Assembly: GCF_040729435.1 (NCBI RefSeq)
Contig: NZ_CP160398.1
Span: 3,224,001 to 3,288,000, forward strand
DNA: 64,000 bases
Direction: 5' to 3'
From: Pseudomonas sp. HOU2
Lineage (GTDB): Bacteria; Pseudomonadota; Gammaproteobacteria; Pseudomonadales; Pseudomonadaceae
Part shown: piece by piece, positions 3,027-21,967 of the stretch
How positions within the stretch are numbered: the stretch's first letter is position 1
Layout of the letters: every line of letters starts with the position of its first letter
Program-made: the position numbers and the translations under genes
Notes under the pieces: model-generated
Seen by the model: only the letters and a program-made list of their open reading frames with translations
Database searches by the model: none
Told to the model about the DNA's origin: nothing

Positions 3027-3054
3027 GGCTGGGCGTTTTCTGAAGGGGTTGGAC

Positions 3055-3411: not shown

Positions 3412-3414
3412 GCT

Positions 3415-5270: not shown

Positions 5271-5409
5271 TGGATAATCCTCATCATGTGGTGGCCGATG
5301 TGCGTTTTGGCCTGTCTTGGCGTAGCGCAGCGCGTTCTATAGCTTCAAAACAGCGATATGACAGAAGCAGACGCTTGAAATCGACGAGCTCAGGCCTAAT
5401 TCAATTTAA

Positions 5410-5424
5410 TGTTATAGTATAACA
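5410..5424. promoter_or_regulatory. Zur box in the zigA / secreted-protein divergent promoter
   Basis: A perfect 15-bp palindrome, TGTTATA-G-TATAACA, in an AT-rich stretch. The core GTTATAxTATAAC is the gamma-proteobacterial Zur operator consensus. It lies 139 bp before zigA and 80 bp before the 125-residue protein, so one operator can serve both directions. Related boxes occur at 7121 and, weaker, at 21949. Confidence 0.88.
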
Positions 5425-5504
5425 ATATAAATAAGCCAGACCCGCTCTTGCCGAAACTGATAAAGCGCTGAAAGCTGCACGCAATCTGCCCATCGGGAAC
5501 CGCG

Positions 5505-5882: not shown

Positions 5883-7081
5883 ACCTGCGCTTTTTGCTGC
5901 TCCTGCTGCCAAGCGATGTAGCTATCTGCTGGCGGATTCTTCTGGAAGTAACGCTGCAATCCTTCAAACAGACCATCAGCCACAGCTCGCTGATGTCGTG
6001 GCGTGACTAGGCGCTGGCGGTCACGGGCGTTGGAAATGAAGCCGGTTTCCACCAGAATCGATGGCACATCCGGCGACTTCAAGACGGCAAATCCTGCCTG
6101 TTCCACGCGCTTCTGATGCAGCGTGGTAATACCCGCCAGACTGCTGAGAACGGTGCTGCCGAGTTGCAGGCTCGCGGCGATGGTGGCGCTCATCGACATG
6201 TCGAGGATCACGCCCGCGAGCATCGGATCCTTGTCTTTGAGATTGAGCAGGCTGGTCGCACCAAGCAGGTCCGCGCCGTTCTCCCGTTGCGCCATGAAGC
6301 GTGCAGTCGCTGACGTCGCCCCACCTTCGGACAGGCAATATACCGACGCTCCCGACGCCGTCAGACGCGGTGCCGCATCGGCGTGTACCGAGATAAACAT
6401 GTCGGCCTTGTGCTGACGTGCGATGTCCACACGCTTGCGAAGCGGCACGAAGAAGTCGTCATTGCGCACCAGTTTGACGTCGAAGCCTTTCTCCTTTTTC
6501 AGGCGTTTGGCGAGCAACTGGGCGATGGCAAGAACCACATCTTTTTCCCGCTCACCCTTGGCGCCAACCGCGCCTGGGTCTTTCCCGCCGTGCCCGGGAT
6601 CAACGACAACGATGATGTCGCGCTTGGGGTGAGCCTGATTCGAGGGTGTTTCACGTGGAACCATTGCCGGACTTGATGCCTGTTTGGCGTTTACCAGATC
6701 AAGCACCAAACGGTGTCCTTGGCCATCTTGAGGCGCCAAAAGGAAGCTGTTCAATAGCACCGGATGGTTCAGATCGAGAACGATCCGTGTATTCCCCTGA
6801 CCAAAATGCCCTGAGCGAATGGCGCGAATCGCGGTATCGGCCAGCGCTAATCGACCGAAATCGCCACTCAAACTCGCCCCGGGAAGGTCGATGATCAAGC
6901 GTTCTGGAGAGCTCAGCGAAAAGGTTTTGTAGCGCACCGGACCGCTAAGATCGAAGACCAATCTCAGCTTGTCATCCGAACGCCATAGGCGCGCATTGCG
7001 AATTTGCGCAGCCGAAACGGTGAAGGGAAAAGCCAAGGCCGTGCTGGCCAGAAGTAGACTGAGCAGATGACGTCTGTGCAT
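5879..7081 (-). CDS. N-acetylmuramoyl-L-alanine amidase (AMIN + Amidase_3), zinc-island paralogue
   Basis: A 400-residue periplasmic amidase that cleaves the bond between MurNAc and the stem peptide. The export signal starts HRRHLLSLLLAS, which resembles a Tat motif, as in E. coli AmiA/AmiC. The AMIN domain covers about 26-135 and the catalytic Amidase_3 domain about 155-380. Zinc ligands and catalytic residues are visible: DPGHGG (H164), the E of GEREKD (about 179), SVHAD (H233) and VETGF (E345). The start is divergent from folE2, and a good minus-strand promoter (TTGATT, 16 bp, TATAAC) overlaps the Zur box at 7121. It is most likely the zinc-starvation paralogue of the housekeeping amidase. 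A parS-like site lies inside. Confidence 0.9.
   Translation of the reverse strand: MHRRHLLSLLLASTALAFPFTVSAAQIRNARLWRSDDKLRLVFDLSGPVRYKTFSLSSPERLIIDLPGASLSGDFGRLALADTAIRAIRSGHFGQGNTRIVLDLNHPVLLNSFLLAPQDGQGHRLVLDLVNAKQASSPAMVPRETPSNQAHPKRDIIVVVDPGHGGKDPGAVGAKGEREKDVVLAIAQLLAKRLKKEKGFDVKLVRNDDFFVPLRKRVDIARQHKADMFISVHADAAPRLTASGASVYCLSEGGATSATARFMAQRENGADLLGATSLLNLKDKDPMLAGVILDMSMSATIAASLQLGSTVLSSLAGITTLHQKRVEQAGFAVLKSPDVPSILVETGFISNARDRQRLVTPRHQRAVADGLFEGLQRYFQKNPPADSYIAWQQEQQKAQV
6647..6662. other. parS-like site 1 (in amidase gene)
   Basis: TGTTTCACGTGGAACC matches the ParB site TGTTNCACGTGNAACA except for the last base. The two half-sites differ by one base (TTTCAC / GTGGAA), so it is not a perfect palindrome. 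It lies within the amidase coding sequence. The ParB that would read it is at 59120-59992. Confidence 0.75.
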
Positions 7082-7120
7082 GTGAAAGCCTGTTCATGAA
7101 AAAGGCATCGTGATTTGAAT

Positions 7121-7135
7121 TGTTATAATGTAACA
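7121..7135. promoter_or_regulatory. Zur box and promoter between amidase and folE2
   Basis: TGTTATA-A-TGTAACA is a 15-bp palindrome with one mismatch and the same GTTAxx-N-xxTAAC skeleton as the box at 5410. On the minus strand a -35 TTGATT (7144-7149) and a -10 TATAAC (7122-7127), 16 bp apart, place the -10 inside the box. On the plus strand it contains TATAAT at 7124-7129. Zur bound here would block both the amidase and the folE2 operon. Confidence 0.88.
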
Positions 7136-7165
7136 TCTAATTCAATCAACACGATGGTCCCGAAC

Positions 7166-8062
7166 ATGAATTCGCTGACACTTCCGGATATTGCGACTCA
7201 AGCCGCTCGCCAGGCATTACCGCTTGATTGGGTGGGAATGTGCGGCATTGCTCTGCCTGTTTTATTGCAAGGTCAACGTCTGGGCGCAAAAGCTGATGCA
7301 GGCGTGAGTCTCGATGATGGCGAGGCGCGCGGTATTCACATGTCGCGGCTGTATCTCGCACTGGCGACACTTGAGCGGCAGGACCTATCTCCCTCCCTGT
7401 TACGCCAGGTTCTCGAGGATTTTCTGGCCAGCCATGATGGTTTATCCAACGGCGCCTACCTGAAAATCCACTGCGAAGTGCTGCTGAAAAGGCCTGCGTT
7501 AGTCAGCCCTCTAGCCGGCTGGAAGAGCTACCCAGTGAGCATTTCTGCGAGCCTGAAAAACAAAGTGTTCCACGTGGAACTGAAAATTGAGGTGCCCTAC
7601 TCCTCAACTTGCCCGTGCTCAGCAGCTTTGGCGCGGCAGTTGATTCAGCAGCAATTCATCGATGACTTCGCCAACAAGCCACTGCACCATGCCGAAGTTT
7701 TGACCTGGCTTGGATCAAGCCAAGGCATTGTCGCCACCCCGCACAGCCAACGCAGCACCGCGCATCTGCACATGCATCTCGACGAGTTCATCGACGAGCT
7801 TCCCCTGAGTGTGATCATCAATGACGCCGAAGCGGCGCTCGGCACCGCCGTGCAAACCGCCGTGAAACGTGCCGACGAGCAAGCCTTCGCGTTAGCCAAT
7901 GGGCAGAACCTGATGTTCTGCGAAGACGCCGCGCGACGACTCAACCTGGCCCTGCGTCGCTCCCCCGGGGTGAGTGGATTCCACCTGCGAGTGATCCACG
8001 CCGAAAGCCTGCACGCCCACGACGCGGTCGCCGAAAGCCACTGGCATCGAGAACTCGAATGA
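7166..8062 (+). CDS. folE2: GTP cyclohydrolase FolE2 (type IB)
   Basis: Converts GTP to dihydroneopterin triphosphate, the first step of folate synthesis. FolE2 works with other divalent metals when the zinc enzyme FolE fails, which is why it is placed under Zur. The family hallmark STCPCSAALAR is present, with the active-site cysteine at residue 149 when counted from ATG 7166. An in-frame ATG at 7154 would add four residues; 7166 is preferred because homologues begin MNxLTLPDIA, although no strong ribosome site precedes either. It is first of six tightly spaced plus-strand genes. It carries a near-perfect parS at 7566. Confidence 0.92.
   Translation: MNSLTLPDIATQAARQALPLDWVGMCGIALPVLLQGQRLGAKADAGVSLDDGEARGIHMSRLYLALATLERQDLSPSLLRQVLEDFLASHDGLSNGAYLKIHCEVLLKRPALVSPLAGWKSYPVSISASLKNKVFHVELKIEVPYSSTCPCSAALARQLIQQQFIDDFANKPLHHAEVLTWLGSSQGIVATPHSQRSTAHLHMHLDEFIDELPLSVIINDAEAALGTAVQTAVKRADEQAFALANGQNLMFCEDAARRLNLALRRSPGVSGFHLRVIHAESLHAHDAVAESHWHRELE
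7566..7581. other. parS site 2 (in folE2)
   Basis: TGTTCCACGTGGAACT contains the perfect 14-bp palindrome GTTCCACGTGGAAC, the core of Pseudomonas parS; only the outermost base deviates from TGTTCCACGTGGAACA. It is read as KVFHVEL in folE2, so the site is accommodated in coding sequence. Confidence 0.85.
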
Positions 8063-8727
8063 TCCGTTGCCACACCCTGAGTTGGGGCGCACCCGGCCAA
8101 CCACTGACTTCGCCACTGACCCTATCGCTGGAACACGGCAGCCTCGGCGCCATCATCGGCGCCAACGGCTGCGGTAAGAGCAGCCTGTTGAAAGTCATCG
8201 CCGGATTGCAGGAGCCGTTATCGGGAAAGGTCGCACTGGGTGTTTCACGTCAGGGCGGTTTGGCGTTCCTGCCGCAACAGCAACACCTCGACCGACAGTT
8301 CCCCATCAGCCTCGAAGAGCTGGTGGCCGCGGGTTTCTGGGGCCGTCGACTGTCGACGCAACTGCGCACGCAACGACTCGTCAACGCACTGGAAAATTGG
8401 CACCTTAGCGGTCTGGAACAGCGTCCGCTGATGGCCCTCTCCGGTGGCGAGTTGCAACGCGCCCTGCTCGCCCGCTTGAGTCTGACCGACGCCCCATTGC
8501 TGCTCCTTGACGAACCCCACGCCGCACTCGATGAACTGGGCCAACAATTGCTCTGGCAACACATCCACGCCTGGCACTCCGAAGGACGGACACTGCTGGT
8601 GGTCTGCCATGACCTCGCCGCTGTCCGCCAACACATCCCGCAGACCCTGCTGATCAAAAACCGCGAATGCGTGTTCGGACCCAGTACCGAACTGATCCAG
8701 CAAACACCCGATATGCAGGTGGCCTGA
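8059..8727 (+). CDS. Metal ABC transporter ATP-binding protein (ZnuC-like)
   Basis: ATPase of a metal-type ABC importer, 222 residues. Walker A GANGCGKSS (34-42), Q-loop PQQQHLDRQFP, signature LSGGELQRALLARL, Walker B LLLLDEP and switch His VVCHD are all intact. The ATG overlaps the folE2 stop by 4 bp, and the next gene starts in its own stop codon, so translation is coupled. Together with the permease and the TroA-type binding protein that follow, it forms a complete importer. Location in a Zur-controlled operon points to zinc; manganese cannot be excluded from sequence alone. Confidence 0.9.
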   Translation: MIRCHTLSWGAPGQPLTSPLTLSLEHGSLGAIIGANGCGKSSLLKVIAGLQEPLSGKVALGVSRQGGLAFLPQQQHLDRQFPISLEELVAAGFWGRRLSTQLRTQRLVNALENWHLSGLEQRPLMALSGGELQRALLARLSLTDAPLLLLDEPHAALDELGQQLLWQHIHAWHSEGRTLLVVCHDLAAVRQHIPQTLLIKNRECVFGPSTELIQQTPDMQVA

Positions 8728-9593
8728 TGCTTACCGTCGCCCACCTCTGGCAACCGTTCAGCGAGTTCGTGTTTATGCGCCGAGCGCTGCTCGGTGGACT
8801 GGTATTGGCCTGTAGCACAGCGCCGCTCGGTGTGTTCCTGATCCTGCGGCGCATGAGCCTGATCGGTGACGCCGTCGCCCACGGCATCCTTCCCGGCGCG
8901 GCATTGGGCTTCTGGTTCGCCGGTCTGAGTCTCCCCGCGTTGACCTTCGGTGGTCTGGGTGCCGGGCTGGGCATGGCCGGACTGGCCGCCTGGATTACCC
9001 GCCGCACCGGTCTGCGCGAAGACGCCAGCCTCGCTGCGATCTACCCGATCTCGCTCGCCAGTGGCGTGCTGATTCTTGGCATCGCCGGCAAGCGTCTGGA
9101 TCTGCTGCACTTGCTGTTCGGCTCAGCGCTCGCCGTCGACGGCCCAACCCTCAACGGCATGTTGTGGGTGTCGGGACTGAGCCTAGCCGCCATGGCCCTG
9201 ATCTACAAACCGCTGCTGCTCGACACCCTCGACCCGTTGTTCCTACAAACCGTCAGCCGGCTCGGCCCGCTCGCCCACGGTGTGTTCCTGACATTGGTGG
9301 TACTGAATCTGGTGATCGGTTTCCAGGCCATCGGCGCCTTGATGGTGGTCGGCCTGATGATGCTGCCCGCCGCCGCTTCGCGGTTCTGGAGTCGTCGCCT
9401 GCCTGCCCTGATTGCGATCTCGGCGCTCATCGGCTGCCTGTCGGTGTGGTGCGGATTGTTGATCTCGTTCTACTACTCGCTGCCCAGTGGTCCGGCCATC
9501 GTGCTGGTCGCGGGGATCGGTTATCTGCTGTCGGTCGTGTTCGGGCCGGTGCACGGTTTGCTGCGCCGCCCGCCTTTGCTCACATCCCCATGA
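8727..9593 (+). CDS. Metal ABC transporter permease (ZnuB-like)
   Basis: Integral membrane permease of the ABC-3 family, 288 residues, with about eight hydrophobic segments. The cytoplasmic coupling region LRRMSLIGDAVAHGILPGAALG is typical of ZnuB/TroC permeases. The start at 8727 uses TGATG overlap with the ATPase gene; an in-frame upstream ATG inside that gene is unlikely. The stop overlaps the region where the binding-protein message begins. It should form the membrane channel of the importer with the neighbouring ATPase. Confidence 0.9.
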   Translation: MLTVAHLWQPFSEFVFMRRALLGGLVLACSTAPLGVFLILRRMSLIGDAVAHGILPGAALGFWFAGLSLPALTFGGLGAGLGMAGLAAWITRRTGLREDASLAAIYPISLASGVLILGIAGKRLDLLHLLFGSALAVDGPTLNGMLWVSGLSLAAMALIYKPLLLDTLDPLFLQTVSRLGPLAHGVFLTLVVLNLVIGFQAIGALMVVGLMMLPAAASRFWSRRLPALIAISALIGCLSVWCGLLISFYYSLPSGPAIVLVAGIGYLLSVVFGPVHGLLRRPPLLTSP

Positions 9594-9604
9594 GGTGTTT
9601 CCCG

Positions 9605-10480
9605 ATGCGCGCTTTACTCGTATTGTTCAGCCTGCTGCTCTCGATGTCGTTGTCGGCGGCGGAAAAATTGCCCGTGGTCACCAGCTTCAGCATCCTCGCC
9701 GACATGGTTCACCAAGTGGGTGGCGAGCATATCCAGATCACCAATATGGTCGGCCCGGACGCCGACGCGCACACCTATGAACCGACACCGGACGATGCCA
9801 AAGCGCTGCTCAAAGCCAAACTGATCATCAAGAACGGCCTCGGTTTCGAACCATGGCTTGATCGTCTGGTGACCAGCACCGAGACAAAAGCCACGGTCGT
9901 CAGTGCCAGCCGTGGTGTGATTCCTCGATCGCTGGATGAGGATGGCGAGACCATTCCCGACCCGCACGCCTGGCACAACCTGGCCAACACCGAGTTGTAT
10001 GTCGCCAATATCACCAAGGCACTGATCGCCGCCGATCCGGCGAACAAGGCCGACTACCAACGCAACAGTCAGACCTACCTGAAACAGATCTACGCCCTGC
10101 TCGCCGAAGCCAAGGCCAAGCTCGGTTCACTGCCGCCGGGCAATCGCAAGATTGTCACCAGCCACGATGCCTTCGGTTATCTCGGTCAGGCCTACGGCAT
10201 CGACTTCATGGCGCCGCAAGGTCTGTCCACCGAGCGCGAACCTTCGGCTGCCGAAGTCGCTGCGCTGATCACCCAGATCCGTCAGGCCAAGGTCAAAGCG
10301 GTGTTCATGGAAAACATCAAGGACGCGCGCCTGCTCAAGCAGATCGCCGAAGAAAGCGGCGCGCACATTGGCGGCACGTTGTACTCCGATGCCCTCGCCG
10401 CCAGTGGCCCGGCCAGCACCTTTGCCGGCTTGTTTCGATACAACCTCAACACCCTTTACGACGCGCTGAGCCAACCATGA
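9605..10480 (+). CDS. Periplasmic metal-binding protein (TroA/ZnuA family)
   Basis: A 291-residue substrate-binding protein with a signal peptide (MRALLVLFSLLLSMSLSAAE). Four likely metal ligands are visible: H56 (DAHTYEP), H121 (DPHAWHN), H187 (SHDAFGY) and D262 (LYSDAL), the three-His-plus-Asp set of TroA-like proteins. It lacks the His-rich loop of E. coli-type ZnuA, which marks it as a second system rather than the main znuA. GAGGTG at 9592-9597 selects ATG 9605 over ATG 9590. It is coupled to the carbonic anhydrase gene by a 4-bp overlap. Confidence 0.88.
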   Translation: MRALLVLFSLLLSMSLSAAEKLPVVTSFSILADMVHQVGGEHIQITNMVGPDADAHTYEPTPDDAKALLKAKLIIKNGLGFEPWLDRLVTSTETKATVVSASRGVIPRSLDEDGETIPDPHAWHNLANTELYVANITKALIAADPANKADYQRNSQTYLKQIYALLAEAKAKLGSLPPGNRKIVTSHDAFGYLGQAYGIDFMAPQGLSTEREPSAAEVAALITQIRQAKVKAVFMENIKDARLLKQIAEESGAHIGGTLYSDALAASGPASTFAGLFRYNLNTLYDALSQP

Positions 10481-11037
10481 TTCGCAAAAACCCTTCCGGC
10501 GATTTGCCGCACATTGCCGAGTCGGCCTACGTCGATAAAACCGCGATCATCTGCGGCAAGGTGGTCATCGGTGAGAACGTCTTCGTCGGCCCCTACGCGG
10601 TGATCCGTGCTGACGAAGTAGACGCTTCGGGCACGATGGAGCCGATCACCATCGGCGCCAATTCGAATATCCAGGACGGCGTGGTGATTCACTCCAAATC
10701 CGGCGCGGCAGTAACCATCGGCGAATTCACCTCGATCGCACACCGCTCGATCGTGCATGGTCCGTGCAAGGTCGGCGACCGGGTGTTCATTGGCTTCAAT
10801 AGCGTGCTGTTCAATTGTGTGGTCGGTGACGGCTGTGTGGTTCGACACAACTCGGTAGTCGACGGCCGAGATTTGCCGGACGCGTTTTACGTGCCCTCCA
10901 CCACCCGCATCGGCCCCAACACCGACCTCTCGCAGTTCCCGCCAGTGAGTGTCAGCGCCTCGGAGTTTTCCGAAGACGTGGCGCGCACCAACGTCGATCT
11001 GGTGCGCGGTTACAAAGCCTTGCAAAACGAGTTCTGA
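10477..11037 (+). CDS. Gamma-class carbonic anhydrase-like protein
   Basis: Left-handed beta-helix protein of 186 residues with repeated hexapeptides (for example VIGENV, TIGANS, KVGDRV). The metal-binding His triad of gamma carbonic anhydrases is present: H72, H89 and H94 (VVIHSK, SIAHRSIVHGP). This class can use iron or cobalt in place of zinc, so it may replace a zinc-only carbonic anhydrase during starvation. P. aeruginosa carries an equivalent gene between folE2 and the second dihydroorotase. It overlaps the binding-protein gene by 4 bp and sits 3 bp before the dihydroorotase. Activity itself is inferred. Confidence 0.87.
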   Translation: MIRKNPSGDLPHIAESAYVDKTAIICGKVVIGENVFVGPYAVIRADEVDASGTMEPITIGANSNIQDGVVIHSKSGAAVTIGEFTSIAHRSIVHGPCKVGDRVFIGFNSVLFNCVVGDGCVVRHNSVVDGRDLPDAFYVPSTTRIGPNTDLSQFPPVSVSASEFSEDVARTNVDLVRGYKALQNEF

Positions 11038-11040
11038 ACC

Positions 11041-12372
11041 ATGAGCAGTGTGCTGATTCGCAATGCCAGACTGGTCAACGAAGGACGCGAGTACGATGGC
11101 GATCTGCTGGTCAGTCATGGCCGTATCGTCAAGATTGCGCGCAGCATCGAGGGTGAAAATGCCCGCGTGGAAATCGACGCCCAAGGTCAATGGCTGTTGC
11201 CGGGGATGATTGATGACCAGGTGCATTTTCGCGAACCGGGGTCGCCGGCCAAGGGCAGTATTCATAGCGAGTCGCGCGCTGCGGTGGCGGGCGGCATCAC
11301 CAGTTTCATGGACATGCCCAACACCCGACCGGCCACCCTGACCCTGGAAGCGCTGGCGGATAAAAAACGCCGGGCGGCGATTAACTCCGTGGCCAATTAT
11401 GGCTTCCACTTCGGTGTCAGTCAGGACAACCTCGACACCGTCGCCGCACTCAATCCCTGCGAAGTGGCCGGGGTCAAAGTGTTCATGGGCGCGTCCACTG
11501 GCAACATGTTGGTGGATGACCCGAAAACTCTCGAGCGTCTGTTCGCCGTAGTGCCGACGATCCTGCTGGCCCATTGCGAACACACACCGAGCATCGAGGC
11601 CAATGCAGCACGTCTGCGCGAACTCCACGGCGACCACCTGCCGGCGAATATCCATGCACTGATTCGTGATGCCGAGGCTTGCTACCGCTCCTCTTCGCTG
11701 GCGGTGGAACTGGCCAGACGTCACGGCACCCGCCTGCACGTTTTGCACCTGACCACTGCTCGCGAACTCGAGTTGTTCGAGGACAAGCCGCTCGCCCAGA
11801 AACACATCACGGCTGAAGTCTGCCTGCATCATCTGCTATTCGATGACCGCGACTATCCGGCCCTCGGCAACCTGATCAAATGCAATCCTGCGATCAAGAC
11901 CCAAACCGACCGCGACGCCCTGCGCGCGGCGCTGCTGAGTAACCGACTGGACGTCATCGGCAGCGATCACGCACCGCATACCTGGGCAGAAAAGCAGCGC
12001 CCGTATGCCGAAGCGCCTGCCGGCTTGCCGCTGGTGCAGCACGCCTTGCCGGCGATGCTGGAACTGGTGGCCGATGGCATGCTGCCGATCACCACGCTGG
12101 TGGCGAAGACCAGCCATCGGGTGGCGGATCTGTTTGCGATTCCGGATCGAGGTTATTTGCGGGAGGGGTATTGGGCGGATCTGGTGCTGGTTGAGCCAGC
12201 GGCTCTGGAGGTGTCGCGGCAACCGATCCTGTCGCAGTGCGGGTGGACGCCGTTTGCTGACAAGACTTTCCGCTATCGGGTGAATACAACGTTGGTGTCG
12301 GGGCAGATTGCCTGGCGGGAGCGGCGTATCAACGAAGGATGCCAGGGGCTGGCGTTGCGATTTATGCGGTGA
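11041..12372 (+). CDS. Dihydroorotase, zinc-starvation paralogue (PyrC2/PyrQ type)
   Basis: Amidohydrolase of 443 residues that would cyclise carbamoyl-aspartate to dihydroorotate in pyrimidine synthesis. Metal-site segments are DDQVHFREPG (58-67), GVKVFMGAST, LAHCEH, LHVLHLT and GSDHAPHT. The first His of the usual HxH pair is Gln60, as in a subset of bacterial dihydroorotases (QVHFREPG), so activity is probably kept but the metal site may differ. Last gene of the folE2 unit, followed by a REP hairpin. In P. aeruginosa the corresponding gene is under Zur and backs up the housekeeping enzyme. Confidence 0.88.
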   Translation: MSSVLIRNARLVNEGREYDGDLLVSHGRIVKIARSIEGENARVEIDAQGQWLLPGMIDDQVHFREPGSPAKGSIHSESRAAVAGGITSFMDMPNTRPATLTLEALADKKRRAAINSVANYGFHFGVSQDNLDTVAALNPCEVAGVKVFMGASTGNMLVDDPKTLERLFAVVPTILLAHCEHTPSIEANAARLRELHGDHLPANIHALIRDAEACYRSSSLAVELARRHGTRLHVLHLTTARELELFEDKPLAQKHITAEVCLHHLLFDDRDYPALGNLIKCNPAIKTQTDRDALRAALLSNRLDVIGSDHAPHTWAEKQRPYAEAPAGLPLVQHALPAMLELVADGMLPITTLVAKTSHRVADLFAIPDRGYLREGYWADLVLVEPAALEVSRQPILSQCGWTPFADKTFRYRVNTTLVSGQIAWRERRINEGCQGLALRFMR

Positions 12373-12972: not shown

Positions 12973-13105
12973 CGAAAAAAACTCCTGATCAGTAGTGGCC
13001 GTTAGACGTCGGCCGGTTGCTTCGGTTCATGCACCAATTAAATAGCGACATTCGCCTCGGAACATGGTCTGTTACGCATTGAGTCTTCAGGAGCAAGGCT
13101 GCCCC

Positions 13106-14545
13106 ATGGATTATTTCGGACCGCACATTTTCGGTTATCTGATCGCCCTGATACATAGCCTCGGCTTGATCGCCGCCATCCACGCGGTGCTGACCGTACG
13201 CACCGCCCAAGGCTCGATCGCCTGGGCATTGTCGCTTATTTTCATTCCCTACCTGACGCTCATCCCTTATCTGGTATTCGGCCGCAGCACCTTCGACGGC
13301 TACATCAAGGCACGCCGTCAGGCCAACGAACAGATGCGCCAGGCGATCTCCGAGCTGAACTGGCGCCCGTGGGTCGAAGAGGCCCTCACCGCCCGTGCAT
13401 CCAACGCCTACGCCTCACTGCGCGCCATGCCCAAATTGGGTCGTATGCCGTGCCTGGCAAACAACGAAGTACAGCTGCTGGTGAATGGCCACGCGACCTT
13501 CGAGGCGATTTTCCGTGCCATCGATCAAGCGCGCGAAGCCGTACTGGTGCAGTTTTTCATCATTCATGACGACCGCCTCGGGCAGCGCCTGCGCGACCTG
13601 TTGCTGAAAAAAGCCGCCGAAGGCGTGGCGATCCATCTGCTCTACGACCGGATCGGCAGCCACGCCCTGCCCCATAGCTTCGTGCAGGCGTTGCGCGACG
13701 GCGGTGTCGAGGTCAAAGCCTTCGCCACGCGCAGCGGCTGGCTCAATCGCTTCCAGGTGAATTTCCGCAACCACCGCAAAATCGTCGTGGTCGATGGCGT
13801 GCTCGGCTTTGTCGGTGGGCACAACGTCGGCGATGAGTACATGGGCGAGAAGCCGCCGCTGGCGCCCTGGCGCGATACCCACGTGCAAGTGCGCGGGCCG
13901 GTGGTGGCCTGCATGCAGGAGTCGTTTGCCGAGGACTGGTTCTGGGCCGCACGGACTTTGCCGCCGCTGATCCTGCCAGACGTTTACCCGGAGGACGGCG
14001 TGCTCTGCCAGTTGCTGGCAAGCGGCCCCGCCGACGCTTACGAAACCTGCTCGCTGTTCTTCGTCGAAGCGATCCACGCAGCGACCGAGCGCGTGTGGAT
14101 CACCAGCCCGTACTTCATTCCCGACGAAGCAGTCTTCGCCGCGTTGCGTCTGGCGGTGCTGCGCGGCGTCGACGTGCGTCTGCTGCTGCCATCGCGCCCC
14201 GATCACCGCATCGTCTACGCCGCGTCCAGCCTGTATGCCTTCGAAGCGGTGCGCGCCGGCGTGCGCGTGTTCCGCTACGAACCGGGTTTCCTGCATCAGA
14301 AAGTGGTGTTGATCGACAGCGAAATCAGCGCCATCGGTAGCGCCAATCTGGATAACCGTTCGTTCCGGCTGAATTTCGAAGTGATGTTGCTGACCGTCGA
14401 CAGCGACTTCGCCGCCAGCGTGGAACAGATGCTCAACGCCGACTTCGAGCAAGCTTACGAAGTCGCCAAAGAGGAAAGCCGGGAGATCCACCGCCTGCAA
14501 CAGCTCGGCATGCGGATCGCCCGGCTGATTTCCCCGATTCTCTGA
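13106..14545 (+). CDS. clsA: Cardiolipin synthase A
   Basis: Phospholipase-D superfamily enzyme of 479 residues that condenses two phosphatidylglycerols into cardiolipin and glycerol at the inner membrane. Two N-terminal membrane segments (about 7-27 and 35-55) precede the two catalytic HKD motifs, HRKIVVVDG and HQKVVLIDS, each followed by the usual GxxN / GSANLDNRS stretch. The ORF is open 14 codons further upstream, but ATG 13106 gives the standard ClsA N-terminus, with AGGAG 12 bases ahead. A GC-rich hairpin follows the stop. Confidence 0.93.
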
Positions 14546-14580
14546 ACGGCGCCTCTCCCCACAGCGGGAGAGAGGCGTTC
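14544..14580. terminator. GC-rich hairpin between clsA and cfa
   Basis: An imperfect stem pairs GAACGGCGCCTCTCCC with GGGAGAGAGGCGTTC across a CACAGC loop. It begins at the clsA stop and lies 6 bp beyond the convergent cfa stop. There is no clear U-tract on either side, so factor-independent termination is probable, not certain. Confidence 0.5.
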
Positions 14581-14585
14581 AGGCA

Positions 14586-15773
14586 TTACGGGTGATAGAT
14601 GTCGTCCCGCGTCCAAGGCAACTCATGGCTGCCATCGGCGTGCGCTTTCACTGCCAGAATCTGGTGCAGATTGATCCAGCCCCGCGCGAAGGCGTAAGCA
14701 CATCCGGCCAGATACAGGCGCCAGATGCGCAGCGCCTGCTCAGGCACCATTTTCGCCGCAGCTTCGAGGTTGTCTTCCAGCCGCTCGCTCCAGTGGTCCA
14801 GCGTGCGCGCGTAATGCAGACGCAGGCTTTCGACGTCGACAATTTCCAGGCCTGCTTCACTGATCTCGGCCGAGATCATTGCCAGATGCGGCAGCTCGCC
14901 ATTGGGGAATACATATTTCTCGATGAAATCCCCAGCGCCACGCCCGACCGGGCGACCATCGGTGTGTTTGGCGGTGATGCCATGGTTCATCACCAGACCG
15001 CCCTCTTTCACCGCACCAAACAGGACGTTGCAATATTCGGCGAGGTTGGCGTGGCCGACGTGTTCGAACATGCCAACGCTGACTACCTTGTCGAAGCGCC
15101 CGTCCTGCGGCAGATCGCGGTAGTCGAGCAGTTGCAGTTCGACCTGGTCTTCCAGGCCCTCGGCTTTGACGCGCTCGCGGGCCAGTGCCAGTTGTTCCTT
15201 GCTCAGGGTAATGCCGAACACTTTGGCGCCAAACTCCCGCGCCGCAAAACGCGCCAGCCCACCCCAACCGCAGCCGACATCCAGCAGGTAGTCGCCGGGC
15301 TGCAGACGCAGCTTGCGACACAGGTGCCGGAACTTGGCCTGTTGCGCTTGCTCGAGGGTTTCACTGCCGGTTTCAAAATAGGCGCAGGAATACGCCATGT
15401 CGCTGTCTAGCCAGAGCTGGTAGAACTCGTTGGACAGGTCGTAGTGATAAGAAATGGCTTTGGCGTCGGTTTCCTTGTCGTGCACCGCTCGCACAGGCTG
15501 GGCGCCTTCATCTTCGTCGAGCAAGGCACTGCTCAGTTCGTCGCAAACCCGGATGACTTCGCTGATCGAGCCCTCCAGTTCAAGCTTGCCTTCGACGAAC
15601 GCCGCCCCCAGCGCGTCTAGGCTTGGATGGGTGAACTGGGTGACCATCGTCGGGTCCTTGACCACGATGGTTACGCTGGGCGCCGGGCCCAGATTGAACT
15701 CATGGCCGTCCCAGAGTCGCAGGCGAAGTGGAAGCTGCAAATTCTGCAAGGCCGGTGGAAGTTGCGCGAGCAT
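14586..15773 (-). CDS. cfa: Cyclopropane-fatty-acyl-phospholipid synthase
   Basis: SAM-dependent enzyme of 395 residues that adds a methylene bridge to unsaturated acyl chains of membrane phospholipids. The substrate-binding N-terminal region is followed by the SAM site LLDVGCGWGG (about 163-172), GITLSKEQ, and the downstream EHVGHANL and FIEKYVFPNGELP segments characteristic of CFA synthases. The length is usual. Neighbouring clsA is convergent, so the two lipid genes do not share a promoter. Confidence 0.93.
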   Translation of the reverse strand: MLAQLPPALQNLQLPLRLRLWDGHEFNLGPAPSVTIVVKDPTMVTQFTHPSLDALGAAFVEGKLELEGSISEVIRVCDELSSALLDEDEGAQPVRAVHDKETDAKAISYHYDLSNEFYQLWLDSDMAYSCAYFETGSETLEQAQQAKFRHLCRKLRLQPGDYLLDVGCGWGGLARFAAREFGAKVFGITLSKEQLALARERVKAEGLEDQVELQLLDYRDLPQDGRFDKVVSVGMFEHVGHANLAEYCNVLFGAVKEGGLVMNHGITAKHTDGRPVGRGAGDFIEKYVFPNGELPHLAMISAEISEAGLEIVDVESLRLHYARTLDHWSERLEDNLEAAAKMVPEQALRIWRLYLAGCAYAFARGWINLHQILAVKAHADGSHELPWTRDDIYHP

Positions 15774-15956: not shown

Positions 15957-17858
15957 CTAGTCCTGAAGCTTCAACAACGGTTCCTGAAACCGCAGCAAGC
16001 GCCCGGCGTTGCCCAACACCAGTAATGTACTGAGGTTGTGCAGCAACGCTGCAATCATCGCCCCGGCAGCACCAAGCCAGCCGAAGGCGGCGAAGACGAC
16101 AATCGCCAGCGTCCAGCCCAGACCGATGATCACGTTGACCTGCAAGGTCTTGCGGCACTGGCGGCTCAGGCGCACACAGGTGCCGAGGCGGCGCAGGTCA
16201 CTGCCGATCAGGACGATATCCGCCGAAGCCAGGGCAATGTCGGCACCGCCTGCGCCCATCGCCACACCCACCACACCGGCCTTGAGCGCCAGCGAATCAT
16301 TGATGCCGTCACCCACCACCATTGGCCGGAAACCGTTGTCGATTTCCTTGAGCACGCGGTTGAGCTTGTCCTCGGGCAGCGCTTGCGCTTCCACCTCTTG
16401 CAGGCCGACCTCGCAGGCCAGGGTCTGCGCAACACTCTGGCGGTCGCCGGTCAGCAGCAGCTGGCGACCCAGCCCCAGTTCGCGCAATTCAGCGAGGGCA
16501 AAGCGCGCTTCCGGTTTGACGCTGTCGGCCAGCAACAGCCAGGCGACAAACTCGCCGTTTAACGCCAGCCCGGCAATCGGCCCGTCGTGCTCGGGAACGT
16601 TGGTGGTGACGATGCCCAGTTGCGCGAACAGTTCGGGACGCCCCAGCGCCGCCTCACCCTGCGCGGTCATGGCCACGACACCCAGACCCTGGCGCTCGTG
16701 AATGTCCGTCAGCGGCAGGCTCTGCTCTTGACTGACTAACCCCGCCAACGCCCGGCTGACAGGATGACTGCTGGCCGCGCCGAGACTGGCGGCCAGAGCC
16801 ATCACCGAGGCCTGATCCAGACGCGGGCTGCTGACCGATTGCAAACGCAAGGTCCCGTACGTCAGCGTGCCAGTCTTGTCGACCACCAGCGAGGTGAGAT
16901 CGGCCAGCTCTTCAAGAAACGCCGAACTGCGGATCAGAATGCCGTGGCGCGCCGCGACCGCCACTCCGGCAATTGCCGTGGCCGGTGCCGACAGCACCAA
17001 GGCGCAAGGACATGCGGCTACCAGCACCGCGAGCATCGCCTGCGCATCATGGGTGACAAACCAGGTCACCGCCGCCAGCAACAACACCAGCACCATGTAG
17101 CTGCCGGCATAACGTTCAAGCAAACGGGTGATGGGTGGCTTCGAGCGTTCGGCGTTCTGCATCAGTGCGATGACCTTACCCAGCGTCGATTGATCGCCGG
17201 TGCGGGTCACCTCAATACGCAGCAAGCCGTCGAGGTTGATCGCGCCGCCGAATACCGTCATGCCCACCGCCGTTTCCACCGGCACCGACTCGCCGGTGAT
17301 CGATGCCGTATCGAGGCTGGCCTGGCCGAACAACACCCGGCCATCCGCTGGCACCCGATCACCGGCGCGCACCTCTACCGTGTCGCCGGGTTTGAGCGTG
17401 CCGTTATCGACTTCGATGATCGAACCGTCCGCCTGAATCTTGCGCGCGTGGCTGCGGGTCAACTGGCCGAGGGCGTGGATCGCTTCCTGCGAACCGATCA
17501 CGCTGCGCTCTTCCAGCACGTGGCCGAAAATCATGATGATCGGCAGCAGCGCGGCCGTCAGCAGATCCCCGGTCGCCCAGGCACCGAGCATCGCCAGCGC
17601 AATCAGTTGATCGGTGATGCCGTGCAGGCTCGGATAACGCAGGCTGTACCACGCCGAACGCATCACCGGCACCGCCACCAATAAAGAGGCGAAACCCAAC
17701 AGCAACTGACTGACACCGGTTTGCTCCGGTACCAGCCAGCGCCAGATCAGGCCAAGGCCGAGCAAGCCGAGGGCAAGCATCGCCAGGGTCAATTGCCGTG
17801 CAGCGCGGCGTTGTTCGGCCGAGGACAGCAGGCTCGGTGCGGCAGTGGTCGCAGTCAT
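15957..17858 (-). CDS. P1B-type metal ATPase, HmtA-like
   Basis: Heavy-metal P-type ATPase of 633 residues. Motifs are complete: TGES (188-191), CPC in the transport helix (283-285), DKTGT (327-331, phosphorylation site), SHP (364-366) and GDGIND (516-521). It has no N-terminal CxxC metal-binding domain. Size, motif set and linkage to SPFH proteins resemble P. aeruginosa HmtA, reported to import copper and zinc, rather than an efflux pump. It is last of four genes overlapping by 4 bp, with a Zur-like palindrome ahead of the first. Direction and metal are inferred. Confidence 0.85.
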   Translation of the reverse strand: MTATTAAPSLLSSAEQRRAARQLTLAMLALGLLGLGLIWRWLVPEQTGVSQLLLGFASLLVAVPVMRSAWYSLRYPSLHGITDQLIALAMLGAWATGDLLTAALLPIIMIFGHVLEERSVIGSQEAIHALGQLTRSHARKIQADGSIIEVDNGTLKPGDTVEVRAGDRVPADGRVLFGQASLDTASITGESVPVETAVGMTVFGGAINLDGLLRIEVTRTGDQSTLGKVIALMQNAERSKPPITRLLERYAGSYMVLVLLLAAVTWFVTHDAQAMLAVLVAACPCALVLSAPATAIAGVAVAARHGILIRSSAFLEELADLTSLVVDKTGTLTYGTLRLQSVSSPRLDQASVMALAASLGAASSHPVSRALAGLVSQEQSLPLTDIHERQGLGVVAMTAQGEAALGRPELFAQLGIVTTNVPEHDGPIAGLALNGEFVAWLLLADSVKPEARFALAELRELGLGRQLLLTGDRQSVAQTLACEVGLQEVEAQALPEDKLNRVLKEIDNGFRPMVVGDGINDSLALKAGVVGVAMGAGGADIALASADIVLIGSDLRRLGTCVRLSRQCRKTLQVNVIIGLGWTLAIVVFAAFGWLGAAGAMIAALLHNLSTLLVLGNAGRLLRFQEPLLKLQD

Positions 17859-18916
17859 TTACTGGCTCCCTGAATGATCAGGCGGGAATCGTCTTTCGGA
17901 TCGACCGTGGTCACTGACCCGGCCTGGCCGAGGATCTTCGGCATGCGTTCGCGGTACAGACGCAGGAGCATCTGCGGGTCGGTGCCCTGTTGCTGCGCCT
18001 TGGCCAGGCTCATTACCGTGGCGGTGTCGGCAGAGGCTTTGGCCAAGCGTTCGCCTGCCTGTGCGTGGGCCACTTGCAGCGTGCGGTCGGCTTGCTCGTT
18101 CGCGGTCTGGGTGAGTTTTTCCGCCTCGGTGCGTGCATTGGCGACGGCTTTGTCGGCTTGCTGACTGGCGGTCAATACCGCATTGAAGGCGCTGACCGCA
18201 GGGTCCGGCAGACTCGACTGCACGTCGACCCGCGCCACCTCGATGCCGATGCCCTGCCCACCCGCCTTCAGTTCCGCCAGGCGTTTGTTGATGCCTTGCA
18301 CCAGATCACCACGCAGGCGTTCGCGGCGCTCGGCTGCCTGATTGTCGGCGCCGATCAACTCGGGCCGCGCGACCAGAATAGTGTCCAGATCCCGGGCAGC
18401 AGTCAAAGCCACGGCGCTGCGGGTGACCAGCCGATCCAGTGCCGGCAGCACATGATCACCCTGCAGGACGAAGTCATAGGGATCGGTGACTTTGTAAAAC
18501 ACCCGCACATCCAGTTGCACCACGCCGGCGTCGCCGGTCAGCAAATAGCCGGAACCGGCCAACGCATCGCTCAGCGGAGTGGCGAAGGTTGCCACACGAT
18601 CAGCCTTGATCGCCTCACTGCTGCGCAGCAGGTTTTCCACTCGACGCTCAATCACCCGATCCGCTGCCGGCAGCAAAACCACCTGCTCGAACGGCTGCGG
18701 CCAGGCCAACAACAGCCCGGCATTCTGGATGCGTTGCAGTGCGCCAAAGTGCAGAACCACGGCGCGATTTTGTGGATCGATCTGCCGCACATTGGAAAAC
18801 GCCCACGCCAACGCGGCCAACACCGTGACCGCGTACAAGGCAAAAAACGCCAGGCGTCCGGCTTGAATCCACGGACTGCTCAGCGAATGTGTTCCACGTG
18901 GAACTTCATCACTCAT
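17855..18916 (-). CDS. SPFH/Band-7 protein, HflK-like (third of operon)
   Basis: A 353-residue membrane protein with one N-terminal segment (about 20-43), then a Band-7/SPFH domain beginning RQIDPQNRAVVLHFG, then a long Ala/Glu/Gln-rich helical region (about 255-310) likely to form coiled coils. Relatives of HflK/HflC form large ring or cage assemblies around membrane partners such as FtsH. Translation is coupled at both ends by 4-bp overlaps. It is much shorter than the first SPFH gene of the operon. The link with a metal ATPase suggests a scaffold for the transporter. Confidence 0.8.
   Translation of the reverse strand: MSDEVPRGTHSLSSPWIQAGRLAFFALYAVTVLAALAWAFSNVRQIDPQNRAVVLHFGALQRIQNAGLLLAWPQPFEQVVLLPAADRVIERRVENLLRSSEAIKADRVATFATPLSDALAGSGYLLTGDAGVVQLDVRVFYKVTDPYDFVLQGDHVLPALDRLVTRSAVALTAARDLDTILVARPELIGADNQAAERRERLRGDLVQGINKRLAELKAGGQGIGIEVARVDVQSSLPDPAVSAFNAVLTASQQADKAVANARTEAEKLTQTANEQADRTLQVAHAQAGERLAKASADTATVMSLAKAQQQGTDPQMLLRLYRERMPKILGQAGSVTTVDPKDDSRLIIQGASK
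18890..18905. other. parS site 3 (in SPFH gene)
   Basis: TGTTCCACGTGGAACT is identical in all 16 bases to the site at 7566, with the perfect core GTTCCACGTGGAAC. It falls in the first codons of the 353-residue SPFH gene (read on the minus strand within EVPRGTHS). Confidence 0.85.
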
Positions 18917-19959
18917 GGCTGCGATCCAGATTTGTTTTCGACATTCGGCGGGCCGTCCACCAGTACCCGAAACGGCGCAGCGTCGGTGCGCAGAATCAGC
19001 TTGGTATCCGGCGTAACGATAGTGCCCAAGGTGTCCAGCGAGCGCAGCAGGTTGTACAACTGCGGCGACCCAGCGTAGGCACGCCCATAAATTTGCGCCG
19101 CTTCGACTCGGGATTGCGCTTCGATTTCTGCTGCTTTAACTGTCGCGTCCGCCTGAACAATTCGTGCATCGCGCTCGGCAGCAGAACGAATTTGCGCAGC
19201 TTCCCGCTTGCCGATGGCGGTGCGTTCGGTGGCGATTGTTTCACGCTCGGCGCGCATCCGGTCGACCGTGGCCGTGAGCGTCACCGAAGGCAAGGTCAGA
19301 CGCTCGACACCCACCTGCACCACGCGCACACCGTAAGTGGCAAGCAGTTGCTGATCGATCTGCTGATGCAGTTGCGCTTCGAAATCGGCGATACGCACTT
19401 TGCTGGCATCGGTATTTACCAGATCCGCCAAATCAAAACTGCTGGCGGTGGTTTCCAGCGCGGAGCCGACAAAGGTGCGAATCTGCCGCGCCGCTTCGTC
19501 CGGCTGATTCTGCACCGCACGCATGAAACGTTGCACGTTGTCCGGGTCGCCCTGCACCTGCCACGCCACGTAGGCCTGAACGATGATGCGCAAACCGTCG
19601 CGAGTGCCGACATCCTGCAAACCGCTGGAAGTAGTGCGCAGGCGCAAATCCACCGGGATCGCCGCTTCGAAGGGCGCCGGCCAGCGCCAGCTCAAACCCG
19701 GCTCAAGCAACACTCGAGACGGATTACCGAAACGGGTGATGACCGTGGCCTCGCCCGAGCGCACTTGCACCAGGCTTGCTGCCGCGATGGCGAACGCCAC
19801 CAGCAACAGCGCCCAGCCCATCCGCCGCCACGGGAATGGCCCCGCCTCTTCCGGCGCACCGTGGTGATGGTGATGATGCCCATGATGGTGGTGATGCCCG
19901 GCATGGCCATGATCATGGCCACTGTGGTCATGGGAATCGTGAATGTGCGACTGATTCAA
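18913..19959 (-). CDS. SPFH/Band-7 protein with His-rich N-terminal tail (HflC-like)
   Basis: A 348-residue protein. The first 34 residues contain 18 histidines, including runs of five and six, followed by one membrane segment (about 48-66) and an SPFH domain starting VRSGEATVITRFG. The helical region REAAQIRSAAERDARIVQADAT is HflC-like. A His cluster of this type binds zinc, nickel or copper; on the ordinary topology it would lie in the cytoplasm, beside the ATPase made from the same message. The start codon is TTG, supported by AGGAG seven bases upstream and overlap with the upstream stop. Confidence 0.82.
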   Translation of the reverse strand: MNQSHIHDSHDHSGHDHGHAGHHHHHGHHHHHHGAPEEAGPFPWRRMGWALLLVAFAIAAASLVQVRSGEATVITRFGNPSRVLLEPGLSWRWPAPFEAAIPVDLRLRTTSSGLQDVGTRDGLRIIVQAYVAWQVQGDPDNVQRFMRAVQNQPDEAARQIRTFVGSALETTASSFDLADLVNTDASKVRIADFEAQLHQQIDQQLLATYGVRVVQVGVERLTLPSVTLTATVDRMRAERETIATERTAIGKREAAQIRSAAERDARIVQADATVKAAEIEAQSRVEAAQIYGRAYAGSPQLYNLLRSLDTLGTIVTPDTKLILRTDAAPFRVLVDGPPNVENKSGSQP

Positions 19960-21917
19960 GGGGCAACTCCTGGTTGAGCGGTGGTGCGCGCAGGCGTCGG
20001 ATCAGCCGGCAGCGTGAACGTACGCAGGTCGATGGTCGGCGCATTGCTGCTGCCGCCTAAACGGTGGTCGAGTACCAACAATTTGGCCTTGCTCAGACCC
20101 AGGCTGAGCTGACTCAGATATTGCTCGAGCACGAATGCCTGGCCAGCGCTGGCATAAGCTTTCTGCTCAGCGCTGAACTTCAGGTCTGCCGCCTGCGCCG
20201 TCGCATTGATTTCACGGGCGCTGGCACTGGCCTGATCGCGGGCGAGACTGGCCTGCAACTGCGCCTGATTACTGGCTTCTGCCGCAGCGCCGCGCTCACG
20301 GGAGATCAACGCCTGCGCGCCGATCTGTGCTGCTTGCACGCTGTGGTAAGCATTGGCAGCACCGGCGGGCGGATGAATCGCTTCGACCACCGTGGCGAGA
20401 ATCTCCACACCGCTGTTGAGCTTCTGCAGATCGCCTTGCACCGCACGACCGATTTCTTCGCCCAGCCCTACCCGGTCAGCACCGAGCAAACCGTCGAGGG
20501 TGCGCGAGGCAAAATCGTGCACCAGAATCCGACTCGCTGTGCTGCGGATCAGCGTCGGCACATCAGCGTTGTTGTAGGTCGCCGCCAAGGCGTCCTGATC
20601 CCGCAGGCCGATGCGATAGACGAAGCGCACGTCCATGTTGACGATCTGAAAGCTCTGCTGATCGCCACGACTGCTGGCGATCACCTGGGATTTGTCGTTG
20701 ACGTGGCTGGCATCCCACAAGCGGTTGGCGCTCATTGGCGCCGCGCCTTCGGCGGGCTCGGCCTGGGTCGGCGCAGGCGCATCACCGACGCTGGTTGCCA
20801 ATTCATGCACCACGCCGTTCTCGACGATGAGCACCCGACCCAGCGGCCATGGCAAACCGGCGTGCAATCCGGGGCCGAACACTTGCACCGGTTTGCCGAA
20901 ACGTTCGTAGATACCGCGCCCTTGCAACGGGATTTCGTGGATACCGGTCAGCAACCAACCGACGGCAGCCACCAGCGCCAGCACCGGCAGAAAGGCGCGA
21001 CGCATGTAGCTGAACGCCCAGATCTGGCGCAGATCAATGCCGAAGCGATTGTGCAATTCATGCTGCAAGGCGAGCAGCGGTTGGGGCGGCCAACGCAGCA
21101 TGTCGGCGACAAAACTGCGCGCCAGCAGGGTCGGTTCGAGCTGCTCGCGCCGGGGGCTGAAAACCGACAGAACTGCGCGCAATAGCAACTCGATCGCGAC
21201 CAATCCCGGCAAGATTCCGATCAGCACCGCAAGGCGCACTGGCCACACGGAAGCCTCGCTGGCAAATAACAGGCATAACGCGCCCACTACCAGACTGATG
21301 ATCGCAACGCGCGACAGTTGCGCAAGCGATCCGGCTTCCGGCCATTGCGCCGGATTCTCCTGAGCCAATTGCCGCTCCAGCACCAGCAAGCCAAAACCCA
21401 ACAGCAACATCAGTGCGGCGCCCACCGTGGCCGACAGCCCCACCGCAGCGGGCGGTAACGCCAGATTCCAGACCTGTTCGATGCCGATCATCACCAGCAC
21501 CGACCACCCGCCCAGCCACAGCGTGGCCGCGCCGATCTGCCCCAGCAAATGCAAACTGCGCTGACTCAGACGCTCCAGCAGCCGCTCGTACCAGCCGTCA
21601 GCTGGCGTTGGCTCGACTTCGCTCAACGGCTCGTGGGCGAGCGGATGCATGACTCGCGCACGCCATTGCGTCACCCACCATGCCGACTGCAGGCCGGCGA
21701 CCAGCACCAGCAACGCCGCACCCAGATTCACCAGCAGCGCCGGCCAGATCGATTGCGCGGCAAACAACCCGACAAACATCGCCAGCACCCACCCTGCCCC
21801 GGCCAATGCGCCGAGACCAATGGCCAGGCGGCGCAATCGTCGCCCCTGCGCGGCCGCTTGTTGAAAGCGTGGCAACCCGGTCACTTGCGTGCCATCGACA
21901 TCCAGATCGACTTGCAT
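19956..21917 (-). CDS. Large multi-pass SPFH protein (HflK-like), first gene of the ATPase operon
   Basis: About 653 residues from ATG 21917 (661 from ATG 21941). The N-terminal 300 residues hold five or six hydrophobic segments, a single one follows near 320-340, then an SPFH domain begins EIPLQGRGIYERFGKPV and ends in an Ala/Gln-rich helical region. Ordinary HflK has one membrane segment, so the multi-pass extension is distinctive. ATG 21917 is preferred because GGGG lies just ahead and because it leaves room for a promoter beside the Zur-like box at 21949. It overlaps the next gene by 4 bp. Confidence 0.8.
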   Translation of the reverse strand: MQVDLDVDGTQVTGLPRFQQAAAQGRRLRRLAIGLGALAGAGWVLAMFVGLFAAQSIWPALLVNLGAALLVLVAGLQSAWWVTQWRARVMHPLAHEPLSEVEPTPADGWYERLLERLSQRSLHLLGQIGAATLWLGGWSVLVMIGIEQVWNLALPPAAVGLSATVGAALMLLLGFGLLVLERQLAQENPAQWPEAGSLAQLSRVAIISLVVGALCLLFASEASVWPVRLAVLIGILPGLVAIELLLRAVLSVFSPRREQLEPTLLARSFVADMLRWPPQPLLALQHELHNRFGIDLRQIWAFSYMRRAFLPVLALVAAVGWLLTGIHEIPLQGRGIYERFGKPVQVFGPGLHAGLPWPLGRVLIVENGVVHELATSVGDAPAPTQAEPAEGAAPMSANRLWDASHVNDKSQVIASSRGDQQSFQIVNMDVRFVYRIGLRDQDALAATYNNADVPTLIRSTASRILVHDFASRTLDGLLGADRVGLGEEIGRAVQGDLQKLNSGVEILATVVEAIHPPAGAANAYHSVQAAQIGAQALISRERGAAAEASNQAQLQASLARDQASASAREINATAQAADLKFSAEQKAYASAGQAFVLEQYLSQLSLGLSKAKLLVLDHRLGGSSNAPTIDLRTFTLPADPTPARTTAQPGVAP

Positions 21918-21948
21918 ATCACCCCAACACCTTGGATTCATCGGCTTA

Positions 21949-21967
21949 TTCGTTACGATATAACGAA
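21949..21967. promoter_or_regulatory. Zur-like palindrome upstream of SPFH/P1B-ATPase operon
   Basis: TTCGTTACG-A-TATAACGAA is a 19-bp inverted repeat with two mismatched positions. Its inner core GTTACGATATAAC shares the GTTAxx-N-xxTAAC skeleton with the boxes at 5410 and 7121. It ends 32 bp before the preferred start (21917), which suits an operator overlapping a promoter. It is also about 160 bp ahead of divergent lpd3. It is weaker than the other two boxes. Confidence 0.65.

Follow-up and report, generated by a model that had tools for sequence, protein, structure and literature searches.

A four-gene module of three SPFH proteins and an HmtA-type P1B ATPase behind a Zur-type box in Pseudomonas

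What ties three genes for SPFH proteins to a gene for a metal-pumping ATPase? The question is raised by an operon of Pseudomonas sp. HOU2, whose genome is a single contig of 6.05 Mb (NZ_CP160398.1). In the 64,000-nucleotide stretch of that contig analysed here (positions 3,224,001 to 3,288,000, hereafter the window), four minus-strand open reading frames lie together at 15957-21941, three SPFH genes first and a P1B ATPase gene last. The operon is almost certainly a zinc-starvation module; what the three SPFH proteins might do for the pump is considered step by step below. The four reading frames are the following.

19956-21941, minus strand: SPFH1, 661 amino acids, HflK-like, with a six-helix N-terminal domain, a seventh transmembrane (TM) helix and an SPFH domain.
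18913-19959, minus strand: SPFH2, 348 amino acids, HflC-like, TTG start (PF01145, 112 bits).
17855-18916, minus strand: SPFH3, 353 amino acids, HflK-like, one TM helix (PF01145, 70 bits).
15957-17858, minus strand: HmtA-type P1B ATPase, 633 amino acids (TIGR01525, 519 bits).

Each of the three gene junctions is a 4-bp overlap, in agreement with the initial annotation of this DNA. Its reading of the products as three SPFH proteins and a P-type ATPase was borne out by Pfam, which placed Band_7 (PF01145) above cut-off in SPFH1, SPFH2 and SPFH3 and found E1-E2_ATPase and Hydrolase domains in the fourth frame; an HMA domain was absent from that frame in the same scan. The true start of SPFH1 is probably at 21917, where most of its nearest entries in the databases have it, which gives 653 amino acids and leaves 31 bp between the start and the Zur-type box described below. 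The named best database matches of SPFH1 were from Pseudomonas, several of them from P. koreensis or P. fluorescens.

The order SPFH1-SPFH2-SPFH3-ATPase was kept in all of the 126 loci read, which come from alpha-, beta- and gammaproteobacteria and mostly from Pseudomonas. This count is made up of 40/40 loci with wide flanks, picked for spread from about 134 other matches; 80/80 named loci, the best 80 of at least 446 confirmed stretches in a search with the ATPase alone; and 6/6 plasmid loci. Six of the 40 share their ATPase stretch with one of the 80, so that 120 loci are distinct. The earlier suggestion that a dedicated set of SPFH proteins goes with the pump therefore held throughout. A chance neighbourhood of the four genes was rejected on this constant order, the loci not all being independent, and the module looks obligate as judged from sequence. 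A frame break in one SPFH gene was seen in two of the 40 loci (SPFH1 in L065, SPFH2 in L050) and may be decay or assembly error.

At the search thresholds applied, 11 of 398 genomes sampled over the phylum had SPFH1, the genome of the window being one of them, and the ATPase was found in exactly these 11. Within the genus, SPFH1 was present in 118 of 199 genomes, and SPFH2 was present in 13 of 25 genomes of the sister genus. The ATPase-led named loci (best 80 of at least 446) include Buttiauxella, Rahnella and Enterobacter, where three SPFH genes precede the ATPase.

The module was also observed on plasmids. Ten plasmid records carried SPFH2 at 60-80% identity, and the six that were read (three from Rhizobium and one each from Burkholderia ubonensis, Paraburkholderia sprentiae and Klebsiella aerogenes) all had the module in order; two of them were typed as conjugative. 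Over 51 loci, pairwise identities of the four proteins correlated at 0.90-0.98, with L053 (ATPase cut by a contig end) and L065 set aside; these values fit, as expected, a unit that moves as one, and common descent by itself would give high values too. In the ATPase tree, Rhizobium-type copies were nested among Pseudomonas copies (nearest join 89/89 within an enclosing branch of 97/98), a pattern that points to transfer from one class to another.

Two of the plasmids had neighbours of their own. On the Klebsiella aerogenes plasmid pYD-K10_1 (L201), typed as conjugative, a gene for a Tn3-family transposase is found no more than 3 kb from the module. On the Paraburkholderia sprentiae plasmid (L203), genes for a metal ABC permease and a PCu(A)C-type copper chaperone stand upstream of the module and may hint at copper beside zinc.

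The control of the operon was considered through the palindrome upstream of SPFH1.

21949-21967, read on the minus strand: Zur-type palindrome TTCGTTATATCGTAACGAA.

Scored on the 11 fixed positions of GTTATAnnATAAC, the 13-base core of this box fits 10/11. With at most one mismatch, only 10 distinct cores occur in the 6.05 Mb genome, and three of these are inside the window, at 5411, 7122 and 21952; the first two (5411-5423 and 7122-7134) belong to a zinc-related gene island described further below. Outside the window, three cores precede genes for a TonB-type receptor (L192), a His-rich exported protein (L193) and a second TonB-type receptor (L194), and four have no clear zinc link nearby (L195, two in L197, L198), all these zinc- or TonB-type assignments being readings of the neighbouring frames. 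A core with two mismatches is flanked by a ZnuA-like and a zur-like gene (L196). At up to two mismatches the core was not enriched genome-wide (85/86 versus 168/142 for a reversed-pattern control), and for this reason a core match alone is weak evidence.

Conservation, in contrast, was strong evidence for a Zur-type site. A core of at least 9/11 was found upstream of SPFH1 in 36 of 39 relatives (37 of 40 loci when the window itself is counted), compared with 15 of 2453 windows taken as controls in the same loci; L065, where SPFH1 is split over two frames, was left out of these counts. The named loci behaved alike, with 78 of 80. The palindrome that the initial annotation had noticed at 21949 is thus a kept feature of the locus. 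In the six plasmid loci, no core of at least 9/11 was found. An 18-base palindrome upstream of SPFH1, GATACGTAATAACGTATC, is common to three of the four Rhizobium-type loci (L048, L199 and L204, not L202) and is possibly a local site for Zur or another metal regulator. A simple scan gave no sigma-70 promoter for SPFH1 on its strand under the box.

Judged by sequence, the operon is taken to correspond to the hmtA locus of P. aeruginosa, PA2439-PA2435. The P. aeruginosa locus (PA2434-PA2439, with the SPFH genes paFlo5-7) likewise has three SPFH genes and a P1B ATPase, a Zur site and a response to zinc starvation. In a znuA mutant, expression of PA2434-PA2439 was raised, with 9.0 to 14.4-fold for PA2437-2439 and 5.6-fold for hmtA, and a weak Zur site was predicted for the locus (PMC4542158). 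The PA2439 promoter was reported to be bound and shifted in vitro by Zur with zinc, and in the same report hmtA mRNA showed no fall on zinc addition (PMC8531726). Higher protein amounts were described in zinc-depleted cells, being called significant for PA2438 and PA2439 (PMC11761036), and calprotectin was reported to raise the HmtA system (PMC8557868).

Gene order, conservation, box, motifs and predicted fold come from the present comparison, and the zinc-starvation response and the in-vitro Zur binding from these P. aeruginosa papers, which mostly agree with the Zur-type control first proposed for the locus. Together, the conserved box and the published data support a Zur-controlled operon, with binding predicted for this genome.

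The operon and its zinc response are therefore already known, and its architecture is unexplained in the literature examined. A 2026 study names the SPFH proteins of the locus PaFlo5-7 and reports slight phenotypes, with the proteins largely dispensable in its assays and patchy in distribution; its main text mentions zinc once, and HmtA or an ATPase never (PMC13086221). Among the best-ranked matches of an open-literature search, no title or abstract treated the four-gene module as a unit or the fold of SPFH1. New are the obligate-looking linkage, the predicted CDF-like fold of SPFH1, the separate P1B clade and the His tail carried by either protein.

A difference in layout was noted in the sister genus, which would include P. 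aeruginosa. In 9 of 13 loci there, 660-695 nucleotides separate SPFH3 from the assigned ATPase start. An extra frame of about 150-162 amino acids with a signal-like start occupies a gap of 667-671 bp in four of these sister-genus loci (L066, L047, L067, L073) and is probably the counterpart of PA2436.

For the SPFH trio, the best NCBIfam profile was hflC for SPFH2 and hflK for SPFH1 and SPFH3. All three scored below the equivalog cut-offs, SPFH2 with 97 bits against 134.4 for hflC, and SPFH1 and SPFH3 with 50 and 94 bits against 159.4 for hflK, and HflK/HflC orthology was rejected on these values. The genome has three further SPFH domains, including a pair read as hflK-hflC. Compared with this pair, SPFH2 was 28% and SPFH3 24% identical, and SPFH1 could be aligned over only 36 residues.

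These profile matches bear on a reading in which the trio serves membrane-protein quality control by modulating FtsH, or a different protease, when zinc is short, with the pump as a mere co-regulated neighbour. Many database names for SPFH1 point the same way (HflK or HflC-type regulator of protease activity), and a study in which NAC treatment raised PA2437-PA2439 transcripts took the products as FtsH modulators (PMC9431628). This explanation was nevertheless considered improbable, given the scores below cut-off, the separate and distant hflK-hflC pair, the lack of a protease gene in the module, and a tie to the pump that was seen in all loci read and goes beyond what co-regulation alone would require. 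As in E. coli HflK/HflC with FtsH, the SPFH domains stand behind an N-terminal TM anchor. Unlike that system, the module has three subunits, a six-helix domain in SPFH1 and, as partner gene, a P1B ATPase rather than a protease. Its parts resemble HflK/HflC, and it is nevertheless not HflK/HflC itself.

The most unusual of the three proteins was SPFH1, in which six TM helices are followed by a seventh ahead of the SPFH domain.

20286-20924, minus strand: SPFH (Band 7) domain of SPFH1, residues 340-552 (PF01145, 67.8 bits).
21147-21866, minus strand: predicted CDF/ZnT-like six-helix bundle of SPFH1, residues 26-265, without the CDF metal-site pattern.

The best structural matches of the SPFH part included HflK/C, erlin, stomatin and QmcA. 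The six-helix domain is predicted to fold like the YiiP/ZnT zinc transporters without their metal site. In CDF transporters the metal pair takes the form D/E/H-x3-D (PMC10800456); over 257 SPFH1 sequences, a D/E/H-x3-D/E/H pair was conserved neither in TM2 nor in TM5. TM2 has N72, and TM5 has Arg or Lys at position 211. Near TM5 a single acid, E202 at the start of the helix, was conserved, and position 206 was Leu or Ile.

Sequence kinship of this domain with CDFs was sought by profile comparison and relaxed Pfam and was not found. PF01545 remained unmatched up to E 10 in four SPFH1 N-domains, with stray weak matches only and none of them CDF, and hhalign against 30 CDF proteins gave a probability of 0.5%. 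The whole of SPFH1 had no match among PDB sequences. For these reasons the predicted likeness to CDFs stays at the level of the fold. Compared with YiiP and ZnT, SPFH1 lacks the conserved metal pair, the CDF C-terminal domain and detectable sequence similarity.

SPFH2 and SPFH3 have one TM helix each, and SPFH2 carries a His-rich tail.

19858-19959, minus strand: His-rich N-terminal tail of SPFH2, about residues 1-34, ahead of the sole TM helix.

In SPFH2, 18 His stand ahead of the point where the TM helix ends. The His-rich SPFH2 and the multi-pass SPFH1 (seven TM helices) of the initial annotation were both confirmed. At least five His were present in the tail in 124 of 125 assessable loci, the count leaving out L189 (masked) and L199 (tail not found). 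The sole exception was the Klebsiella plasmid, where SPFH2 has one His and the ATPase five.

The ATPases were also often His-rich at the start. At least five His were found in 26 of 41 when the longest in-frame starts were used (shorter chosen starts gave 14 of 127, which is an undercount) and in 34 of 120 database entries listed, including P. aeruginosa P0134. In contrast to P0134, the ATPase of this genome has no His tail. Because the Klebsiella exception carries its His on the ATPase and many other ATPases are His-rich too, the tail seems to belong to the complex and not to one protein, the exception being a single case.

With regard to topology, SPFH1 should have its N-terminus inside by the charge rule (5 Lys/Arg before the first helix versus 0 after it). 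For SPFH2 and SPFH3 the charges are even, 2 versus 2, and the periplasmic side of the SPFH domains and the cytoplasmic side of the SPFH2/SPFH3 N-termini with the His tail would for that reason follow from likeness to HflK/HflC.

A pump with an operon-encoded partner is known from mycobacteria. In PacL1-CtpC, a P1B ATPase likewise goes with a scaffold that has a His metal-binding motif, DUF1490 being the PacL family (PMC9374683). PacL1 differs in not being an SPFH protein, and the system serves efflux under zinc excess, not starvation; the present module is not a member of that family. PacL1 was described as stabilising CtpC independently of its metal-binding motif (PMC9374683), and the trio could similarly do no more than stabilise or insert the pump, as a chaperone or microdomain, without a closed cage or metal handling. 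A simple stabiliser would not seem to need as many as three different SPFH genes together with a His tail that is conserved, and this explanation was held to be possible, if doubtful.

The ATPase was 82% identical over 620 amino acids to the P. aeruginosa cation-translocating P-type ATPase P0134, which stands for 1424 sequences, and the kinship with HmtA that had been proposed was thereby upheld. From species, cluster size and gene order, P0134 would be PA2435; none of the records examined bears that name. Two motifs were located in the protein.

17004-17012, minus strand: CPC motif, residues 283-285.
16026-16040, minus strand: residues 607-611, the HNLST motif of the last TM helix; DTGAT stands at this place in ZntA and HEGST in P1B-4 pumps.

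CPC was present in 80/80 named loci, and so was HN[LFM]ST in the last helix; two Burkholderia-type copies had HNVGT. W582, H607 and N608 were found in 40/40 rows with residues, the window included, the row of L053 being missing. The ZntA segments GLKGIF and LADTGAT correspond to GLGWTL and LLHNLST in the window ATPase. The Lys of ZntA in the last two TM helices is of importance to that pump, in part by the account of PMC10654040. Of the P1B-2 (ZntA/CadA) traits, CPC is thus present, and the Lys and Asp of the last two TM helices are absent. The P1B-4 (CoaT/CzcP) traits are SPC and HEGGT(X)5N, and the importance of the ZntA Asp has also been described (PMC10800456); the window ATPase has CPC and HNLST(X)5N instead.

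In a tree of 20 HmtA-type pumps and 12 other P1B ATPases, the HmtA-type pumps grouped in a separate clade (100/100), apart from the CopA-, CadA- and CzcP-type rows, with a stem of 4.36 changes per column. The tree was midpoint-rooted without an outgroup, and its long branches, of which the Rhodococcus row is the longest, leave the deep placement unsure. A placement among efflux pumps, which had been named as grounds for giving up the initial annotation, was not what this tree gave. On these alignments the ATPase is assigned to a separate, long-stemmed P1B clade with CPC and H-N-x-[S/G]-T, unlike ZntA- or CoaT-type pumps. On a Rhodococcus plasmid (L236), an ATPase beside a DUF1490 gene has CPC and an HN pair in the last helix, like the HmtA clade; we take this ATPase to be CtpC-like.

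The metal site was unlike that of both groups of divalent-metal exporters, and it is compatible with transport in either direction. The pump might be an exporter, of slipped-in metal or for zinc loading of periplasmic enzymes, scaffolded by the SPFH set, in which case the importer assignment would be an overexpression artefact obtained without the partners. A P-type ATPase review describes all P1B pumps as exporters (PMC10654040), and the import of Zn and Cu assigned to HmtA rests, according to another review, on overexpression phenotypes (PMC10393844). The last-helix HNxST(X)5N also resembles the HEGGT(X)5N of P1B-4 pumps, which export Fe, Co or Zn (PMC10654040, PMC10800456), and PacL1/CtpC is a scaffolded zinc exporter (PMC9374683). 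However, zinc export makes little sense behind a Zur-type box and in a zinc-starvation response, the tree sets the pump outside the exporter rows, and the ZntA Lys and Asp of the last two helices are absent. An exporter was therefore regarded as rather unlikely.

The surroundings of the operon were also zinc-related. About 3.6 kb from it, positions 2055-12372 of the window hold a zinc-starvation gene island with two CobW-type GTPases, DUF1826, an amidase and FolE2; an ABC ATPase, an ABC-3 permease and a ZnuA-type binding protein (a second ZnuABC-like set); and a hexapeptide protein (gamma carbonic anhydrase-like) and an amidohydrolase (dihydroorotase-like). Between island and operon, at 13064-15773, lie two genes that we take to encode proteins like phospholipase D/cardiolipin synthase and cyclopropane fatty acid synthase. 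Elsewhere in the genome, three further P1B ATPases scored above the family cut-off. In P. aeruginosa, the PA numbers place the island genes and the hmtA locus far apart (PMC9431628).

From these observations the following course of events is proposed. When zinc falls, Zur would leave the box at 21949-21967 and the four genes would be made together. SPFH2, SPFH1 and SPFH3 would then assemble, in the fashion of HflK/HflC, and surround the HmtA-type pump with a hetero-oligomeric scaffold that faces the periplasm, and the CDF-like six-helix domain of SPFH1, lacking the CDF metal site, would serve as the membrane dock for the pump. We infer the complex, the docking, the direction, the membrane side and the role of the His tail. 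Taken as a whole, a Zur-repressed zinc-starvation pump in an SPFH scaffold of its own was given an even chance of being right.

Import and a CDF-derived dock are less probable than this whole picture. A more specific version of the scaffolded pump, to be held only tentatively, would make SPFH1 a transport-dead CDF-derived fold fused to an HflK-type cage subunit and the trio a periplasmic chamber round an inward-pumping P1B ATPase, with cytoplasmic His tails, on SPFH2 or on the ATPase, replacing the metal-binding domain of the pump.

Metal import by P1B pumps is disputed, HmtA being cited in reviews as the example of import and another review calling all such pumps exporters (PMC10393844, PMC10654040). 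Should the pump need its three SPFH partners in order to work, then studies of HmtA by itself have examined an incomplete machine. If the proposed picture is true, SPFH cages would gain a transporter as client, a transporter fold would have been reused as a scaffold part, and the pairing of a P1B pump with a scaffold would extend from mycobacterial efflux to zinc starvation.

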